From Leptotrichia wadei (lineage in GTDB: Bacteria; Fusobacteriota; Fusobacteriia; Fusobacteriales; Leptotrichiaceae), in contig NZ_AP019829.2 of assembly GCF_007990545.2 (NCBI RefSeq), forward strand, positions 1,922,001-1,986,000: a stretch of DNA of 64,000 nucleotides. The letters run 5' to 3'. The translations under genes were made by a program, and so were the position numbers. The notes under the pieces are model-generated. The model was not told where the DNA came from. It made no database searches and saw only the letters and a program-made list of their open reading frames with translations. Shown one piece after another: positions 5,980 to 35,489 of the stretch; positions within the stretch are counted from its first letter, which is position 1; every line of letters starts with the position of its first letter.

Positions 5980-6930
5980 TTAATTTACCGTATAATTTAC
6001 CTCTTCGCTATTTTCCACAAAATCATTTCTCATCATATCAATGGAAAGTTTATTAAGTGCCTTTTCCTTTAAGATTTTCACATTATGTTTTGCAATGTTT
6101 AACGATTTTGCAATTTCCTTTTCTGTATAAACTTTGTCATCAAGCCCATAAGTCATAACTAAAATTTGTTCATCCAAATAATTTAATTTTTTTGGAATAT
6201 TTTCTAAAATATACATCTGTGTGATTTTATCTGCTTTTTCAAATATCTGTGTATTTTCCATCAATTCTTCAGGCTCAACCTCGTCAAATAACATTTCCAG
6301 CTGTTCAATATATTCTGTTGTAACATTCATTTGTCTACTTATTTCTTCCATTGAAAGTCCCATACTTTTATCCACTTTTACTTTCAAATATAAAATATAT
6401 GATAATTCTGAGGATTTAATATCCTTTAATAATTCCTTTTGATATTCCAAAATATATTTTACAGCAAAATTTTTTATAAAGAATTCAGGTTCTTTTGTAA
6501 TTTTTGTAATTTGACTATAATAACTCAGTCCCGACATAATTCCGAGCGTAGCCTCCTGAACTGTATCTAAAAATGAAAATCCATATTTTGAATAAAGCAG
6601 GCTTTCCCTCACAGCAATTTTTAAATATTTATCAATCAATTCCTCTTTTTCCCTCTCATCATCACTCTTTTTCTCAAATTCTTCGTATTTTTCCTTTATA
6701 TTTTCCAAATATGATTTTATCGTATCTTTTTCCGCAATAAAAACATTTTCATCCTCTAGCACAATAAAATCACTTCCATCAGTTGAATTTCTGACTTCGG
6801 GAATATTTTCCAAATGAACAAATTTTAGAAATTCAAAAAATTCATCATCGCTCATTGTATAATGCTCAATAATTTTTTCAAAACTAAAACTTCCCTTCTT
6901 CCTAATATCTTCAAAAATTTTTTTTAACAT
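5980..6930 (-). CDS. Degenerate RpoD-like sigma-factor paralogue
   Basis: A 316-residue protein lies directly downstream of rpoD. Residues 95-139 align with sigma region 2 of the neighbouring RpoD (LDTVQEATLGIMSGLSYY against [18 protein letters not shown]). Residues 180-225 resemble region 3, and 248-297 resemble region 4 (YLDEQILVMTYGLDD then a helix-turn-helix ending EKALNKL). The promoter -10 recognition helix of RpoD (TYATWWIRQ) has no counterpart, and the -35 recognition helix has lost the RERIR arginines. The N terminus (1-90) resembles a winged region 1.1. A TAGGAG ribosome site precedes the ATG. Core binding may persist while promoter reading has changed; function is unknown. Confidence 0.75.
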   Translation of the reverse strand: MLKKIFEDIRKKGSFSFEKIIEHYTMSDDEFFEFLKFVHLENIPEVRNSTDGSDFIVLEDENVFIAEKDTIKSYLENIKEKYEEFEKKSDDEREKEELIDKYLKIAVRESLLYSKYGFSFLDTVQEATLGIMSGLSYYSQITKITKEPEFFIKNFAVKYILEYQKELLKDIKSSELSYILYLKVKVDKSMGLSMEEISRQMNVTTEYIEQLEMLFDEVEPEELMENTQIFEKADKITQMYILENIPKKLNYLDEQILVMTYGLDDKVYTEKEIAKSLNIAKHNVKILKEKALNKLSIDMMRNDFVENSEEVNYTVN

Positions 6931-24087: not shown

Positions 24088-25797
24088 TTAAAATTCATAT
24101 TCTCCATTCCAAGTAATAAACAATTTAACAAGTTCTTCTGCAACTTTTTTATTTCTATTTTCAATATCTTCAAAAGTCCAGTCATTTTTATCATCTGGAA
24201 TTAATTCCCTAACATATTTAATTTTAGATTTTTTATAACTTACCTTTTTCTTTTCAAAAAAGTTTTCTGTAGCCTTAATTGACAATCTTCTTTCAAAAGG
24301 AATTTTATTTCCTATATAATTTATATGTTCCTTAACTTCTTTATTTTCCACACTTTCTGTAAACCTGTCACTCCATTTTTGTGGCAATATATATTCAACT
24401 TCCCATTTTTCAGGCAACAGTTCATCTTGATTATTATAGACAACCATTTTTAAAATCATACGCACAAGATTTTTATTGGGTGTTTTAACTCTTTCCTGCA
24501 ATATCGTAATCGGAATATTTTTAAATGCGACTTTTGGAGAAATATTGTCAATTATATCAACATTTAATTTGAGAATATCCGCTTTTACTGCTGAAACACT
24601 TGGTGTTACAAGATAATTGGCAGTTAATTCTAAAAACAGCTTTCTTAAAAATTTTAGAAAACACGCTTCAAAATTTTCTTTTTCACCATGCGACAAATAA
24701 TACACAACAACTGGATATTTCCAAGATTCATTTGGATACGCCGACAAAGTATCTAAAATTTTAATAATATTTACATTTTCAGTCCAAGGTTTGTCGTCAA
24801 TAGATTCGTGTCTATTCATTACAACCCACAAATCCAGAATTTGATCCAGATGTTTTAATAAATTTGATTTATACAGCCTTGTAAATCCATTTTTAGAATA
24901 AAAACGTCTAAGTCCAAGTGTAGTTGTTGCAATATCCTTTTCTACTGCCCTTAGATAGAACATATAATAATAAAACAGCTGTTTTACATTCTCTCTAGCG
25001 TAAGTTGCCCGTTCACTTAAATTTTTCCATTGTTTAATGAACATTTTCTTATATTCTTTTTTTATTCTATTATACATTTTTGCCTTAAATATATCTGCTT
25101 CAGATAATGGCAATCCTCTGTCATTCAAAGTGGAAAATACACTTAATGCATCATCTTGAGAATCTGTTTTTATTGGAAAGACTACTACTTTATTTAAAGT
25201 ATAGTAAATAAATTCTAACATTAAAGTTGGGCTTAATTCACAAAGTTTATCAAATAATCTTTGGAATAAAATATAATTTTTAGAATAATTGTCCATTCTC
25301 TTATGATCAGCGATTCCTGTTTCTAGAATATCCTGTAAAATTTTATTCCCTTCATTATCTATAACTCTTGATGTAATTAATACACTTGTATAATCAACTT
25401 CTCCAGTCAACTTTTCCTGTTTCCAAAGTGCAGGCTGAATCTGTCTTATAAAATTTTCCTGTTCAACGGTTTTTTCTTCATAAGAAGTCAATTTTGTATA
25501 AATAGCACGAAGAAGCAGGAATAAAGATGTAATTCTCTGTTGACCATCAATAATTTCCTGTTCTCCTTCTTCATTTTCATAAGAAACGATACTTCCTAAA
25601 AAATATGTCCCTTCGACTTCACTATTTTTTTTTGACTCATTTTCTGTAAATTCCAAAAGATCATAAAATAATGTTTTAGTTTCATTTTCAGTCCAGGAAT
25701 ATGGTCTTTGATATTCAGGTATTAAAAACATCTGTTCTTTTCCGCTTTCCAGCAGGCGTTTTATACTTTGTTTATTAACTTGTATTGTTGCAACCAT
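24088..25797 (-). CDS. DUF262/DUF1524 (GmrSD-like) protein with altered nuclease motif
   Basis: The 569-residue protein has an N-terminal DUF262 domain (1-260; IPEYQRPYSW, and the ParB-like DGQQR at 84-88, the nucleotide-binding motif of GmrS) and a C-terminal DUF1524 domain (about 450-530). Such fusions are type IV restriction or other anti-phage nucleases. DUF1524 is a His-Me finger: the usual (V)EHIxPQ reads VEYILPQ here (467-473), so the catalytic histidine is tyrosine (Y469), while the later N-x-GN, N and K residues remain (NYIGNK; ENFFEKK). An AGGAGG site precedes the ATG. It stands outside any visible defence island. Confidence 0.85.
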   Translation of the reverse strand: MVATIQVNKQSIKRLLESGKEQMFLIPEYQRPYSWTENETKTLFYDLLEFTENESKKNSEVEGTYFLGSIVSYENEEGEQEIIDGQQRITSLFLLLRAIYTKLTSYEEKTVEQENFIRQIQPALWKQEKLTGEVDYTSVLITSRVIDNEGNKILQDILETGIADHKRMDNYSKNYILFQRLFDKLCELSPTLMLEFIYYTLNKVVVFPIKTDSQDDALSVFSTLNDRGLPLSEADIFKAKMYNRIKKEYKKMFIKQWKNLSERATYARENVKQLFYYYMFYLRAVEKDIATTTLGLRRFYSKNGFTRLYKSNLLKHLDQILDLWVVMNRHESIDDKPWTENVNIIKILDTLSAYPNESWKYPVVVYYLSHGEKENFEACFLKFLRKLFLELTANYLVTPSVSAVKADILKLNVDIIDNISPKVAFKNIPITILQERVKTPNKNLVRMILKMVVYNNQDELLPEKWEVEYILPQKWSDRFTESVENKEVKEHINYIGNKIPFERRLSIKATENFFEKKKVSYKKSKIKYVRELIPDDKNDWTFEDIENRNKKVAEELVKLFITWNGEYEF

Positions 25798-26308: not shown

Positions 26309-26788
26309 ATGTTTGAAAAATTTCGGCTAAAAAAACTCTCAAAAGTTATACAGTCGGCTATATCAAATCTTTTTGATCAAATAATAAAAAAAGATTACTT
26401 TGGTACTTTTTCTAAAATAAATTTTTTAAATATTGAAAACGTTGCTTTATTATATAAAAAAAATAAAAATATTGTTATTAGCAAAAGCGATGGATTCCTA
26501 AAGGCTTTGGATAAATATATTTCCAATTCAGGGATTGATTTATCCTTTTTGGAAAATGTTGATTTAAAAAAGCTCGTTGAAAAATTTGAGAAGCTTTGTG
26601 CCAATGGATATAAAAATTTTATTGAAAATGATATTAGAAATAAGATTTTTGAAAGAATAAAAAAAATATTAGAGGTTTTACAAAAACTATATTTATTTTT
26701 TTACATTCTTTTAAATTACGCTTCAATAAGTTCAAACACAAAAATTTGCAGAGCTCCTCCATATAATTTTTATAAAAATAACTACTAA
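26309..26788 (+). CDS. Unknown protein, 159 residues
   Basis: Not recognised. A strong AAAGGAGG site sits five bases before the ATG, which argues for real translation. The protein is Lys/Ile/Asn-rich and mainly helical to about residue 125. After residue 125 the composition changes (aromatic stretch LYLFFYILL, then a Cys/Pro-rich tail with ICRAPPYNFY) and a run of seven Ts lies at that point, so the C terminus may be out of frame and the gene truncated or shifted. No signal peptide. It is 30 bases upstream of the nitronate monooxygenase gene on the same strand. Confidence 0.5.
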   Translation: MFEKFRLKKLSKVIQSAISNLFDQIIKKDYFGTFSKINFLNIENVALLYKKNKNIVISKSDGFLKALDKYISNSGIDLSFLENVDLKKLVEKFEKLCANGYKNFIENDIRNKIFERIKKILEVLQKLYLFFYILLNYASISSNTKICRAPPYNFYKNNY

Positions 26789-26818
26789 TATAAATTATAA
26801 AATTTGGAGGAAATCAAA

Positions 26819-27979
26819 GTGAAGGAAATATCAGAAGTAAAAAAAGAAAATTCTGTAAATTTAAATGAAGAAAAAGCAAATGAAAACAAAAAAATCGAAT
26901 TAAAGGGAATTAAAATAGGAAAATATTTTATTGAAAAACCAATTGTCCAAGGTGGAATGGGAGTTGGAATCAGTTGGGACAGACTTGCTGGAAATGTAGC
27001 AAAGAATGGATGTCTTGGAACAATAAGCGCAATTTGTACTGGATATTACCAAAATATGAAATTCGTAAAAAAGGCTGTAAATGGACGTCCTCTTGGAACA
27101 GAAAACACCTACAACCGTGAAGCTCTTTTTGAAATATTTAAGAATGCAAGAAAAATCTGCGGGGATAGACCGCTTGCCTGTAACATTCTTCATGCTATAA
27201 ATGATTATGCTAGAGTTGTAAAGGATGCCCTTGAGGCAGGAGCAAATATTATTGTTACAGGAGCTGGACTTCCGCTGGAACTTCCAAAGCTTGTAAAGGA
27301 TTATCCAGATGTAGAAATTGTTCCAATAGTTTCATCAGCTAGAGCATTAAAAATAATATGTAAAAAATGGAAGGCTGCTGGAAAAATGCCAGGAGCAGTA
27401 ATTGTAGAAGGTCCAAAAAGTGGAGGACACCAAGGTGCAAAATATGAAGAACTATTTGCTCCCGAACATCAGCTGGAAGCAATCTTGCCTCCAATAAAAG
27501 AAGAACGTGACAAATGGGGAGATTTTCCTATTATTGCAGCTGGTGGAATATGGGACAATAACGATATTAAAAATATTATGGCACTTGGAGCAGATGCCGT
27601 TCAAATGGGAACAAGATTTATCGGTACTTACGAATGTGATGCAAGTGACGTGTTAAAACAAGTATTACTTAATGCAAAAGAAGAAGATATTGTGATTGTA
27701 AGTTCTCCAGTTGGTTATCCTGGACGTGCAGTAAAAACAAATCTAATTAAAACATTGGAACCAAATACAAAAAAAATTAAATGTATAAGTAATTGTATCT
27801 TTCCTTGTGAACGTGGAAAAGGTGCAAATAGAGTAGGATACTGTATTGCTGACAGCTTGGGAGATGCTTATTTAGGTAGACTTCAAAGCGGATTATTTTT
27901 CTCAGGGGCTAACGGCTGGAGATTAAATAAAATTGTACATGTAAAAGATTTAATAGATGAACTTATGACAACAAACTAA
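26819..27979 (+). CDS. Nitronate monooxygenase / FabK-like flavoprotein
   Basis: This is an FMN TIM-barrel protein of the 2-nitropropane dioxygenase family. Motifs are PIVQGGMGVGISWDRLAG near the N terminus, VTGAGLPLELP, VEGPKSGGHQGAK (with the catalytic-type histidine region), IAAGGIWDNNDI and GADAVQMGTRF for phosphate binding. Members oxidise alkyl nitronates or act as enoyl-ACP reductase (FabK); which applies is unclear from sequence, and no fatty-acid genes are adjacent. I chose GTG at 26819 (386 residues) because GGAGG lies eight bases upstream; an in-frame TTG at 26804 precedes that site. A terminator follows. Confidence 0.88.
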   Translation: MKEISEVKKENSVNLNEEKANENKKIELKGIKIGKYFIEKPIVQGGMGVGISWDRLAGNVAKNGCLGTISAICTGYYQNMKFVKKAVNGRPLGTENTYNREALFEIFKNARKICGDRPLACNILHAINDYARVVKDALEAGANIIVTGAGLPLELPKLVKDYPDVEIVPIVSSARALKIICKKWKAAGKMPGAVIVEGPKSGGHQGAKYEELFAPEHQLEAILPPIKEERDKWGDFPIIAAGGIWDNNDIKNIMALGADAVQMGTRFIGTYECDASDVLKQVLLNAKEEDIVIVSSPVGYPGRAVKTNLIKTLEPNTKKIKCISNCIFPCERGKGANRVGYCIADSLGDAYLGRLQSGLFFSGANGWRLNKIVHVKDLIDELMTTN

Positions 27980-28005
27980 TTAATAATTTGATAATATAGT
28001 TCAAG

Positions 28006-28029
28006 AACGAGGGGCAAAAACCCCTTGTT
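28006..28029 (+). terminator. Intrinsic terminator after nitronate monooxygenase
   Basis: Arms AACGAGGGG and CCCCTTGTT (one G-T pair) with a 6-base loop, followed by TTCT, lie 27 bases after the stop. Confidence 0.65.
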
Positions 28030-28166
28030 TTCTGCTTATTGACTAAAATTTACTTTAAATCTGAAGTTCTTAAAGTTATTAACTCTTTTTATTAAAAGAG
28101 TTTACTTTATTATATAAATTTACTAAAATTAAAACTAAAAATTAACAAAAAAAAATGGAGATAAAA

Positions 28167-29552
28167 ATGGTTAGAAGAATAAGTTTTAGACGGATAGCAA
28201 ACATCCTTTTTAGCAAAAATATTGATGAAGATGAAAAAACTATAAAAAAAAATACAAATAAAGAACATCAACCAATGAAACCTATGACTAAAAATACCAA
28301 AATAAAAGAAATTGAAGATCCTAACCTTCTTTACATACCTCTTTCACAACACATAGGAAGTCCAGCTATTCCAACAGTGGAAATTGGAGACCGTGTAAAA
28401 AAATATGAAAAAATAGGAGAAATTTCAGGAAATATTTCGGCTAATATTCATTCGCCAGTTTCTGGAGATGTTGTCGATGTTGTCGAACATCTTGTGGCAA
28501 ATGGAAAGAAAGTTAAAACAGTTATTATTGTAAATGATTTTCAAAATACTGAAGAAACTCTGACAAAAAGAAAACTGAGTGACTTAAGGCTAATAAAAAA
28601 AGAAGAAATTCTTAAAATAATTAGAGAAGCGGGAATAGTTGGACTTGGAGGAGCACAATTTCCCACACATGCAAAATATGACATAAAATTTAAAAAAGTA
28701 GAAACTTTTATAATAAATGGTGCCGAATGTGAGCCATATTTAACTTCTGATTATTCTGTTATGAAAAATTTTACAAAAGAAATATTTCAGGGTTTAAAAG
28801 TTATACAAAAATTATTAAATCCAAAAGAAATTGTGATTGGAATAGAAGAAGAAAACAAGGAATTAATTGAAATATTTGAAAAAATACAAAAAGAAGAAAA
28901 ATTTGAAATAAAAGTAAAATTACTTCCTGCAATTTATCCTCAAGGAAGCGAATTGCAACTAGTAAATACTATTACAGGAAAAAAATTGAAAAAAGGTGAA
29001 CTACCACTTGAAAAGGGTGTAATTGTAAGTAATGTAAGTACAGTTAAAGCTATCTATGATGCTTTTTTTGAAGGGAAACCATTAATCGAAAGAATTATTA
29101 CAATTTCCGGAGAAGAAGCAAAAAATATTGGAAATTATAAATTAAAATTTGGAACTCCAGTTTATCACATTGTAAAAGAATTAAAAATTACTAATGAAGA
29201 TAAAATAATTTTTGGTGGACCAATGATGGGAACAGAAGTTTTTGATTCTAGAGTACCAACAGTAAAAGGAACTTCTGGAATATTGTTTTTAGATGTGGAG
29301 AAAATTGAAAGAAAAAACTGTATTTCTTGTGGATATTGTGTTGAAACCTGCCCAATGAATCTAATGCCTTTTGAATTTGCAGATTACTATAAAAATGGAA
29401 AATATGAAAAAATGGTAACTGCTAATATTCAGAACTGTATCGAATGTGGAGCTTGTGAATTTGTGTGTCCTTCAAGGGTTCCATTGATGGAAAGTATAAA
29501 AACTGGGAAATTACTTTTGTCGGAATTGGAGGTAAAAAATAATGAAAAATAA
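28167..29552 (+). CDS. rnfC: Rnf electron-transport complex subunit C
   Basis: RnfC is the NADH-binding peripheral subunit of the ion-pumping Rnf ferredoxin:NAD oxidoreductase. Seen: a barrel-sandwich N-terminal segment (IHSPVSGDVVDV), the NADH/FMN region GLGGAQFPTHAKYDIK, a central SLBB-like part, and two [4Fe-4S] motifs, CISCGYCVETCPMN (about 385) and CIECGACEFVCPSR (about 422). ATG at 28167 is preferred over an upstream ATG (28155) because GGAG sits six bases before it. The 461-residue protein is complete. It overlaps rnfD by 11 bases; the usual rnfG, E, A and B are not next to it. Confidence 0.93.
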   Translation: MVRRISFRRIANILFSKNIDEDEKTIKKNTNKEHQPMKPMTKNTKIKEIEDPNLLYIPLSQHIGSPAIPTVEIGDRVKKYEKIGEISGNISANIHSPVSGDVVDVVEHLVANGKKVKTVIIVNDFQNTEETLTKRKLSDLRLIKKEEILKIIREAGIVGLGGAQFPTHAKYDIKFKKVETFIINGAECEPYLTSDYSVMKNFTKEIFQGLKVIQKLLNPKEIVIGIEEENKELIEIFEKIQKEEKFEIKVKLLPAIYPQGSELQLVNTITGKKLKKGELPLEKGVIVSNVSTVKAIYDAFFEGKPLIERIITISGEEAKNIGNYKLKFGTPVYHIVKELKITNEDKIIFGGPMMGTEVFDSRVPTVKGTSGILFLDVEKIERKNCISCGYCVETCPMNLMPFEFADYYKNGKYEKMVTANIQNCIECGACEFVCPSRVPLMESIKTGKLLLSELEVKNNEK

Positions 29553-31005
29553 GGAAAAATCATTAATGGAAGAAATATTAAATAGAGAAAAAAGCAATGG
29601 GAAAAATGGACTTTTAGACAATGATGATACACTTTTAAATTCTACAGTTAAAAATCTTCCAGAAGCTAAAAAAACTGAACAATTACAAAACAATTATTTT
29701 AAAAACTCTGAAATATACAAAACCGACAGTGAAATAAAAAATTTAAATAATCTGAATACAATTGAAAAAGTTAAAAAAAATGAGAATAAAAAAGAAACAG
29801 AAACTATAAAAAAAATATTCTCTAAAAAAGAAACTACGGAAAGTGATGAAGAAATTAAAAGAAAAAAAATAATAAAGAAATTCTTTAAAAAAAGAAAATT
29901 ACAAGTGTTATCATTTACACCATATATAAGAACTGAAATTGAAATACGAAATATTATGAAAGATGTAATTATAGCATTATTTCCAGCTATCATTTCCTCA
30001 GCTTTAGTTTATGGAACAAGAGCACTTCTTTTAATAGCGTTTTCTGTTTTATCCGCTGTTGTGACTGAAAAACTTTTTTCGAAATATTTCCTAAATGACA
30101 ATAATTCTGTTCATGATTTATCAGCAGTTATAACAGGTATCTTGCTGGCTATGACACTTGCTCCATTAACTCCATTACCTATAGTTATTTTTGGAGCTTG
30201 TATGGCAGTTATTTTTGGAAAATTAATTTATGGCGGAATTGGAAAAAATATTTTTAATCCTGCAGTAATTGGTCGGGAATTTATGACTGTATTTTTTTCA
30301 TCCACAATGTCCTCTGGAGCTATCTGGTTCAGCCAAGAATTACTGCAATTATCGGGAATAAAATTTTTTACAGGATTTACTAATTCTCCATTTACAAACT
30401 ATCTAGATGGATTACTGCTGACATCTTCAGGCTCTGTCGGATCTTATTCTGTATTTTCTCTAATTTTAGGAGGATTATATTTATTATTGAAAAATCGGAT
30501 TTCATGGCATATTCCAGTAAGTTTGTTTGCTACATTTTTTATAATTACAATATTTGGTAATATTCCCGTTTCAATTGGTGGATTACTATTAACAGGAATC
30601 TTTATGGCGACAGATATGCCAACTAGCCCATCATCTGCACCAGGAAAAATTTACTATGGAATAATGTTAGGATTGATAATTGGACTTTTATCTATGTTTG
30701 GAATAAAGAATGAAATTTTATCCTATGTTCTATTAATATTAAATCCTTTTGCAAGAATTATAAACAAAGTTTTCCGTCCTGTGGTCTTTGGTTACGATGT
30801 GAAGGAAGAAATATTAAAACAGTCTGAAAAAATGATTTTACTTACTCTTGGAATTTTTGCTTTTGCAATAATTTTCCTTGGATTTCATAAAATAGGAGCT
30901 ATGCCGTATTTAGTATATCTCTATATTCTAATATCTACATTAAATTTAATTTCAAGTAAAAATAAAAATAAAATAATCCATAAAAATCTAAAAAATGCAA
31001 TATAA
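29542..31005 (+). CDS. rnfD: Rnf complex subunit D with long N-terminal extension
   Basis: RnfD is a membrane subunit that carries covalently bound FMN. From about residue 120 the protein matches RnfD/NqrB: nine or so membrane segments, GGIGKNIFNPAVIGREFM and, near 355-362, ATDMPTSP, which corresponds to the flavinylation site ATDPVTSP in other RnfD proteins with the acceptor threonine kept. The first ~115 residues are a Lys/Glu/Asn-rich, probably disordered extension not usual in the family. GGAGG precedes the ATG within the rnfC end. A bidirectional terminator follows; no rnfG is present downstream. Confidence 0.93.
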   Translation: MKNKEKSLMEEILNREKSNGKNGLLDNDDTLLNSTVKNLPEAKKTEQLQNNYFKNSEIYKTDSEIKNLNNLNTIEKVKKNENKKETETIKKIFSKKETTESDEEIKRKKIIKKFFKKRKLQVLSFTPYIRTEIEIRNIMKDVIIALFPAIISSALVYGTRALLLIAFSVLSAVVTEKLFSKYFLNDNNSVHDLSAVITGILLAMTLAPLTPLPIVIFGACMAVIFGKLIYGGIGKNIFNPAVIGREFMTVFFSSTMSSGAIWFSQELLQLSGIKFFTGFTNSPFTNYLDGLLLTSSGSVGSYSVFSLILGGLYLLLKNRISWHIPVSLFATFFIITIFGNIPVSIGGLLLTGIFMATDMPTSPSSAPGKIYYGIMLGLIIGLLSMFGIKNEILSYVLLILNPFARIINKVFRPVVFGYDVKEEILKQSEKMILLTLGIFAFAIIFLGFHKIGAMPYLVYLYILISTLNLISSKNKNKIIHKNLKNAI

Positions 31006-31135: not shown

Positions 31136-31170
31136 GGCTGTCTCATAAAATTAATTTATAAAATACAGCC
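31136..31170. terminator. Bidirectional intrinsic terminator
   Basis: Arms GGCTGT / ACAGCC are flanked by an A-run on the left and TTTTTT on the right, so the structure works for rnfD (plus) and the cupin gene (minus). Confidence 0.8.
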
Positions 31171-31183
31171 TTTTTTAATTTTC

Positions 31184-34562: not shown

Positions 34563-35489
34563 CCATTTTGTTCAAATTTAATTTTAATAAACAAGAAAAA
34601 TAATATCGCCAACAGTCACCTTAAATATATTAAGCTTTCTATTGATAAATTTCTTGCCTGCAGGGATATTTCAAAAGGTTTTGTCAAGTTCAAATGTCCT
34701 CACTGTCCTGTTACACACCTATTCCCCATTACTTGTAAGTTTAAGCTCTGCCCTTCTTGCGGTTACAGGTATTCTATGACAATGGACTGAAAATATTCAA
34801 AGGCGTATTCTCAATATTGAACACTGCCATGTCCTTTTTACTATCCCTCAAGAATGCAGAAAGTTCTTCTTTTATGACAGATCCCTTCTGTCAAAACTTT
34901 CTGCCGCCGTTAACCAGGTATTCAAGTTCATCTTTCACAATGTCAGCAGGAAAAGAAAAAGAAAAAACAAAATTTCTGAACATTCCAAATACTACTTTAC
35001 TGATTCCGATATTGTACATTACAGCCTCATTTCCGTCATTCATACTTTTGGCAGGGACCTGAAAATGGAACCCTCATGTTCATGCCATTGTTTCATTAGG
35101 AGGATTCAATAAAAATCTTGAGTTCAGGAAAATGAGACACTTCCAAGGAGGTCACTTTCTTTTTTAACGACCTGGCTAATAATAAAAAGAAAACTTACAT
35201 TGCTATGCCTTCCGAGAGATTTATTTCCCATATTTTAATTCATCTTCCTCCAAAAAATTTTAAGATGGTAAATCGATATGGATTTTACTCAAGACGTATT
35301 TCCGACAAACTCAAAAAAGCAATTGAACCTTTTAAAAGAAATGTTGCAGTATCAAAATATTCATTTTATCAAAGGCAGGTGTACAAGACTTTTGGGATGA
35401 ATCCTTTTTACTGTCCAGCATGCAAGGTTAAAATGATTGTATGGGAATTTTATCATTACAGATATCCGCCCCTCAAAAAATACTATTAA
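34563..35489 (+). pseudogene. Decayed IS91-family (HUH, Y2-type) transposase
   Basis: Three reading frames each keep part of one protein. Frame a (34563-34789): zinc-binding N terminus with CPHC ... C ... CPSCGYR. Frame b (about 34800-35060): the HxxFTIPQE region and helices up to HTFGRDLK. Frame c: the HUH motif HVHAIV with SLGGF (about 35066-35095). Frame d (35205-35489): the catalytic-tyrosine region YGFYSRRI and the CPACKVKM zinc pair near the end. At least three frameshifts or deletions and a missing stretch after 35165 make it inactive. An ISCR/IS91 element moves by rolling-circle transposition; its ends cannot be fixed here. Confidence 0.75.

Follow-up and report, generated by a model that had tools for sequence, protein, structure and literature searches.

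The closest described relatives of the system reported here are the Nqr/Rnf-like two-subunit complexes (Meheust 2021; Huang 2024) which, according to PMC8238504 and PMC11334425, likewise have an RnfD-like domain without the threonine that carries covalent flavin mononucleotide (FMN), a partner that supplies the covalent flavin, and a proposed short, one-way path for electrons from NAD(P)H; the site that has lost the RnfD threonine is proposed to be served by the flavin of the partner (PMC11334425). Here we describe an rnfC-rnfD gene pair in a stretch of 64,000 nucleotides of the Leptotrichia wadei genome (contig NZ_AP019829.2, forward-strand positions 1,922,001 to 1,986,000; referred to as the window, whose own coordinates are used below unless stated otherwise). 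The pair belongs to a separate operon type linked to apbE, the gene of the flavin transferase, and not to a decaying Rnf operon, a conclusion that is well supported, as are the composition and the ancestry of the system. The analysis shows the gene set and gene order (small membrane protein, apbE, rnfC, rnfD), the absence of RnfA, RnfE and RnfG from the genome of the window, the loss of the FMN threonine from RnfD, and a conserved motif in the tail of the small protein.

Compared with known systems, the locus shares some features and departs in others. In Nqr/Rnf-like complexes an NqrF-type NAD domain is fused at the C-terminus (PF00175) and the partner is an extracytosolic FMN-bind protein, whereas the RnfD of the window matches PF03116 only, its RnfC is a separate protein, its tail protein has no recognised domain (with no PF04205 match in the genome), and its ApbE lacks a signal-like N-terminus. 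With the Rnf complex (RnfCDGEAB) the system shares homologous RnfC and RnfD subunits of the same fold, together with the redox motifs of RnfC, but it is without RnfA, RnfE and RnfG, has no RnfB match above noise, and has an RnfD that is devoid of a covalent FMN site and lies in a separate clade; where both systems coexist, there is a second apbE. RnfC-type proteins also occur outside Rnf, as in PrdC and stand-alone RnfC-like proteins (TIGR04481), but the rnfC product of the window, at 190.7 bits, is far under the PrdC cut-off of 490 and is paired with RnfD. The features of the pair are as follows.

28155 to 29552, plus strand: rnfC-type subunit, with RnfC_N barrel-sandwich, 51K FMN/NADH domain and two 4Fe-4S motifs.
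29542 to 31005, plus strand: rnfD-type membrane subunit without the FMN-carrying threonine, from family match, alignment and predicted fold.
29542 to 29898, plus strand: K/E-rich N-terminal extension of RnfD (~119 aa), from alignment; seen in the Leptotrichia copies of this type.

Both genes are complete, with intact frames overlapping by 11 bases and no other Rnf gene beside them in the window, all of which an earlier note on this DNA had claimed; its span of 28167 to 31005 is right at the end but not at the start, 28167 being the second in-frame ATG of an rnfC that begins at the ATG at 28155. The rnfC product scores 466.8 bits against TIGR01945 (cut-off 246) and 330.9 bits against the RnfC of 7zc6, the eight cysteines of its two cluster motifs are conserved across 11 alignment rows, and the FMN/NADH motif is retained. 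The rnfD product scores 235.6 bits against PF03116 (cut-off 27.7) and 197.9 bits against TIGR01946, slightly below the cut-off of 207. When each gene was compared with those of three congeners (six comparisons), the ratio of nonsynonymous to synonymous substitution rates (dN/dS) was 0.09-0.12 for rnfC and 0.16-0.21 for rnfD, so both are under purifying selection and in use, in line with the note's argument that the kept frames and motifs speak against decay. The K/E-rich extension begins with an EKSL-like peptide in most aligned Leptotrichia copies of this type and is missing from the aligned RnfDs of sister genera.

RnfDs of the kind found here (window-type) differ from canonical ones at the FMN site. 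The corresponding alignment column, set from nine canonical rows fitting a motif search, holds threonine in all 39 canonical RnfDs and in none of 51 window-type RnfDs, among them a second copy termed rnfD2 (see below), and pairwise alignments to solved RnfDs agree with the loss. A hidden FMN site in RnfD was considered and ruled out, as the divergent copy of genome G023 (we use G for genomes and L for loci) is alone among the 51 in having an SGAT-like stretch, and this at a displaced position. The same 51 proteins split from the 39 with support of 100/100 in a tree in which canonical RnfDs of the same genomes fall outside the window-type clade; the tree omitted L073, L083, L117, L118, L119, L128, L135 and proteins shorter than 300 aa, used only the last 370 residues of RnfDs longer than 400 aa, and carries a long-branch warning, foremost for L077_G023. 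The idea that window-type RnfD is common in Bacteroidota was also rejected: among 296 genomes, with up to six candidates scored per genome, only the search centre reaches 554 bits, and the next-best RnfD, at 235 bits, was taken as canonical.

The predicted model of RnfD (predicted local distance difference test, 88) matches the RnfD of 9eri (Acetobacterium) with a Z of 32.5, and also matches the other Rnf/NQR subunits. Among the matches that Foldseek ranks high, which is the range covered by the structure search (further families with the same fold are possible), Z is 30-32 to RnfD versus ~12 to urea and ammonium transporters. The latter value could be read as a sign that RnfD has turned into a transporter or channel, with RnfC and ApbE as optional regulators or former partners, and rnfD is indeed the most persistent gene of the set, having no rnfC beside it in G009, G012 and G023 or in the case of rnfD2. 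We consider such a change of role improbable: likeness to urea and ammonium transporters is general to NqrB/RnfD proteins, the values to RnfD itself are the higher ones, and RnfC has kept its redox motifs and is encoded next to rnfD in 31 of the 33 loci of the species scan described below.

The genome to which the window belongs is in two contigs and is estimated to be 100% complete. A search for RnfA/RnfE (PF02508), which was positive in four members of the family and for 4 of the 14 genomes used as controls, gave no match in the whole of this genome or in any of the 13 genomes of the genus. FMN_bind/RnfG (PF04205) also had no match across the genome, which rules out an FMN_bind protein elsewhere acting as RnfG; it is present in the four Rnf-bearing family members, while all 13 genus genomes lack RnfG and all 13 retain RnfD. 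The only RnfB match is ferredoxin-like (27.5 bits, profile positions 104-161). The profile's cut-off of 68.7 was reached by none of 33 family genomes, including the four with an Rnf operon, but these four match the N-terminal half of RnfB, the half that is missing here. As RnfA/E and FMN_bind proteins are absent genome-wide, no fewer than three of the four partners of the pair are missing. The earlier note had left two alternatives, that the other subunits lie elsewhere in the genome or that RnfC and RnfD work without them, perhaps with another flavin route, and had pointed to a genome search for the subunits and ApbE. In that search RnfA, RnfE and RnfG were not found, which speaks against the first alternative; RnfB appeared only as the ferredoxin-part match, and ApbE turned up as a single copy away from the window (C1:1661660). 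The second alternative is favoured, in the form of an operon type linked to apbE.

The same pattern extends through the family. RnfA/E was found in 66 of 98 genomes of the phylum, as expected from the note's statement that Rnf occurs in many fusobacteria, and RnfD in 85 of them. RnfD without RnfA/E occurs in 19 of the 98, every one in Leptotrichiaceae (all 13 genus genomes plus G002, G004, G020, G023, G024 and G026); this is a rule of the family rather than an accident of one strain. Four members (G003, G017, G021 and G022) have RnfA/E and RnfG plus an additional window-type RnfD, and carry two apbE genes, one adjoining each system. In a neighbouring family, some of G073-G079 and G087-G092 show additional RnfD-like matches, in open frames ~505-595 aa long.

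A scan of 84,980 species by peptide patterns from window-type proteins yielded 33 loci, a count that is a floor and is biased to this type because the patterns came from it; the scan may omit records very close to the genome of the window. The order small membrane protein, apbE, rnfC, rnfD is found in 28 of the 33, in Leptotrichiaceae, Bacteroidota and Oxalobacter, the record names besides Leptotrichiaceae being Dysgonomonas, Prevotella, Parabacteroides, Flavobacterium, Myroides, Zunongwangia, Pustulibacterium, Pontibacter, Labilibaculum, Bacteroidaceae, Bacteroidales and Oxalobacter. The exceptions are L117, which has apbE, rnfC and rnfD at a contig edge, L119 and L135, both from Leptotrichia and lacking an adjacent apbE (as well as rnfC in the case of L119), L146, without rnfC, and L148, with rnfC-rnfD only; in L120 rnfC was read as two overlapping frames. 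RnfA/E is absent from 20 of the 25 non-Leptotrichiaceae hosts tested, a test from which 8 of the 33 loci were omitted (3 from metagenome-assembled genomes and 5 from Leptotrichiaceae).

The small gene lies 5' of apbE in 37 of 42 apbE rows, and for 33 of these 37 a gap of 4-26 bases separates its end from the start of apbE or from a conserved N-terminal Tyr codon. The other five rows comprise L138 and L140, which do have the small gene, the second fragment of an apbE that is split, an unrelated ApbE, and L117 at its contig end. The sister genera have one operon of small protein, apbE, rnfC and rnfD, several with an msbA-like gene 5' and an mfd-like gene 3' (names assigned by reading the sequences), and this arrangement is likely the ancestral operon of the window pair. 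One could instead see the pair as a decaying vestige of a lost Rnf operon, pointing to the loss of rnfC in G009 and G012 and to three genomes whose apbE is gapped or fragmented. At odds with this are the dN/dS of 0.09-0.21 in six comparisons, the separate clade, the four genomes that house it alongside an Rnf operon, and an operon shared by three phyla; decay, to which we give hardly any credence, is largely refuted by that clade and by the spread of the operon across phyla.

In the small protein a single hydrophobic segment is joined by a low-complexity linker to a motif-bearing C-terminus, and no match above cut-off was obtained (six proteins searched against Pfam, three against NCBIfam). 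Of 38 non-redundant small proteins (X-containing sequences and near-copies having been removed beforehand), 32 carry the motif [DE]x[AS][STH]x[ST]x-COOH, versus a mean of 0.07 and a maximum of 2 in shuffles, a figure that overstates the motif because the 38 proteins share ancestry and had been viewed before the motif was defined; two of the six misfits come from Dysgonomonas, the others from G010, G014, G017 and G023. The Leptotrichia tail contains repeats of E-[KRG]-A-[ST], with three copies in the genome of the window and four in G014, whose apbE is intact. G010, with a split apbE, retains two of four, and no copy is intact in G012, from which apbE and rnfC are lost, a single case of motif loss alongside apbE loss. 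In some genomes small tail-protein genes occur in tandem, as in G021, where two precede apbE (L072 6266-6529 and an 81-aa open reading frame upstream of apbE at 6827); one contains cysteines.

The serine, histidine and aspartate of ApbE that alignment and spacing equate with the catalytic residues given in a review (PMC12052999) are invariant in 14 of 14 sequences. No hydrophobic N-terminus was seen in 40 of 40 window-type ApbE rows (maximum 1.45 versus 2.64 for one Rnf-operon ApbE; the rows include same-genome near-copies and one broken piece, and starts were taken as the first codon in frame), and the ApbE of L. wadei starts in the same way. According to the same review, ApbE modifies short tags at protein ends. 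Considering this precedent, the position of apbE next to the small gene, the conservation of the motif and its loss in G012, we infer that flavinylation takes place on the tail, and that the small protein would carry FMN attached by ApbE.

On balance we lean towards a model in which RnfC-RnfD is the NADH-oxidising half of a four-part system that would deliver electrons to ApbE-attached FMN on a tethered tail. NADH would reduce the FMN of RnfC, from which electrons would cross the two 4Fe-4S clusters of RnfC into RnfD, and RnfD, having no covalent FMN site, would pass them to the FMN that ApbE is proposed to attach to a Ser/Thr of the small protein's flexible tail. The tethered, swinging flavin of the tail, which may be likened to the lipoyl arms of dehydrogenases, would substitute for both RnfG and the FMN of RnfD itself, and would pass electrons to an acceptor beyond the core set, perhaps a different one in different lineages. 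A candidate acceptor is encoded 3' of rnfD in nine Bacteroidota loci (L131 9106-9750 and eight others), where the gene product is nitroreductase-like (PF00881 in the one of the nine that was scanned) with an N-terminus judged lipoprotein-like by eye.

Charges flanking the hydrophobic segment predict the tail to be outside the cell membrane in 31 of 35 small proteins. If the tail were instead cytosolic, the signal-less ApbE could flavinylate it there, and electrons might run from the clusters of RnfC through the tail to flavoenzymes such as the nitronate-monooxygenase-like (NMO-like) enzyme, with RnfD mainly as an anchor or ion path. This arrangement would suit the 40 ApbE rows without an N-terminal hydrophobic segment and the NMO-like gene found upstream of rnfCD in seven window-type Leptotrichia loci (the window and six others read, rnfC being lost in one, G009), and there is precedent for an ApbE in the cytoplasm, whose substrate is a soluble fumarate reductase (PMC12052999); that Klebsiella ApbE is signal-less too, but its target there is soluble whereas here it would be a membrane-anchored tail. 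We nevertheless regard a cytosolic tail as rather unlikely, given the flanking charges, the nitroreductase-like protein of the nine Bacteroidota loci, which is probably outside the cytosol because of its lipoprotein-like N-terminus, and a terminator-like hairpin that divides the NMO-like gene from rnfC.

The operon has been rearranged within Leptotrichia. In the genome of the window it is divided, the tail protein and apbE being at C1:1661564-1663096 (L052), ~290 kb from rnfC-rnfD, and the ancestral place in Leptotrichia keeps just a small protein and the divergent rnfD2 (L031-L033).

C1:2279447-2280289 of the same genome (L031 7283-8329), minus strand: rnfD2 with small tail protein, between msbA-like and mfd-like genes.

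The two are also present in G002, G010 and G012, with no adjoining rnfC or apbE, and all 13 genus genomes have a second RnfD match of rnfD2 strength. G010 and G014 have the operon of small protein, apbE, rnfC and rnfD (with apbE split in G010) plus an extra rnfCD pair. The operon of G012 has lost apbE and rnfC, leaving a scar between the tail gene and rnfD (L076 5994-6175) that matches the C-terminal 27 residues of the apbE product and then the N-terminal 17 of the rnfC product.

Several observations weigh against a flavinylated tail fed by RnfC-RnfD. The tail motif differs from the canonical ApbE substrate motif D-x-x-[ST]-G-A-[ST], the nearest to it among the listed Leptotrichia copies being the last one of G014, S-E-G-A-T; in the L. 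wadei tail the extreme C-terminus misfits the motif and internal copies alone fit. A tail predicted outside and an ApbE without a signal sit uneasily together: FMN would have to be added prior to export, unless the tail is in fact cytosolic. The apbE gene is in two pieces or gapped in G010, G011 and G016, and G011, where it is in two pieces, still has three tail motifs. In addition, G009 and G012 retain rnfD without rnfC, and ApbE was not found in the genomes of G002 or G012, yet rnfD2 and its tail protein persist there, suggesting that RnfD may act without rnfC and apbE; the survival of rnfD and the tail protein in such genomes is left unexplained by the model.

The surroundings of the pair in the window hold the following features.

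26309 to 26788, plus strand: 159-aa protein of no known family, a conserved neighbour 5' of the NMO-like gene.
26804 to 27979, plus strand: NMO-like FMN enzyme (PF03060), a conserved neighbour of rnfCD in Leptotrichia.
28004 to 28031, plus strand: terminator-like hairpin in the gap between the NMO-like gene and rnfC, from a terminator scanner and a fold z of -3.29.
31136 to 31176, plus strand: terminator-like hairpin with a T run 3' of rnfD, read from the sequence, with a fold z of -3.54.

The NMO-like enzyme is a possible partner of rnfCD. The two hairpins agree with the earlier claim that terminators flank the pair, and 3 of 200 shuffles fold as well as the first and 2 of 200 as well as the second. 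The scanner listed no terminator after rnfD, the loop of that hairpin exceeding its limit, and its count of two showed no excess over the shuffle mean of 1.7, so both hairpins rest on fold statistics. Elsewhere in the window are a GmrSD-type restriction nuclease (PF03235, PF07510) at 24088-25797 on the minus strand and a short open reading frame at 35205-35489 on the plus strand, which matches the end of the Y2_Tnp transposase family right at the cut-off and is probably a remnant.

All parts of the system belong to known families except the small protein, and we regard the combination as a variant of flavinylation-linked, Rnf-derived electron transfer; no description of apbE-rnfC-rnfD with a tail protein was found in a search of the open-licence literature. 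That it constitutes an undescribed system, with FMN at one or more sites on a disordered, membrane-anchored tail, attached by a dedicated, signal-less ApbE at a new motif and fed from NADH by RnfC-RnfD, is in our view an evenly balanced proposition. If true, half of Rnf would work alone once a bare peptide tail has taken over the covalent flavin of two folded subunits, and this would offer a simpler view of electron passage through RnfC and RnfD, be it across or along the membrane. The tail would also be a new kind of ApbE substrate, invisible to searches for FMN-bind domains, in a system small enough to be expressed and tested. Matches to rnfC and rnfD in a genome are also insufficient on their own to call an Rnf complex.

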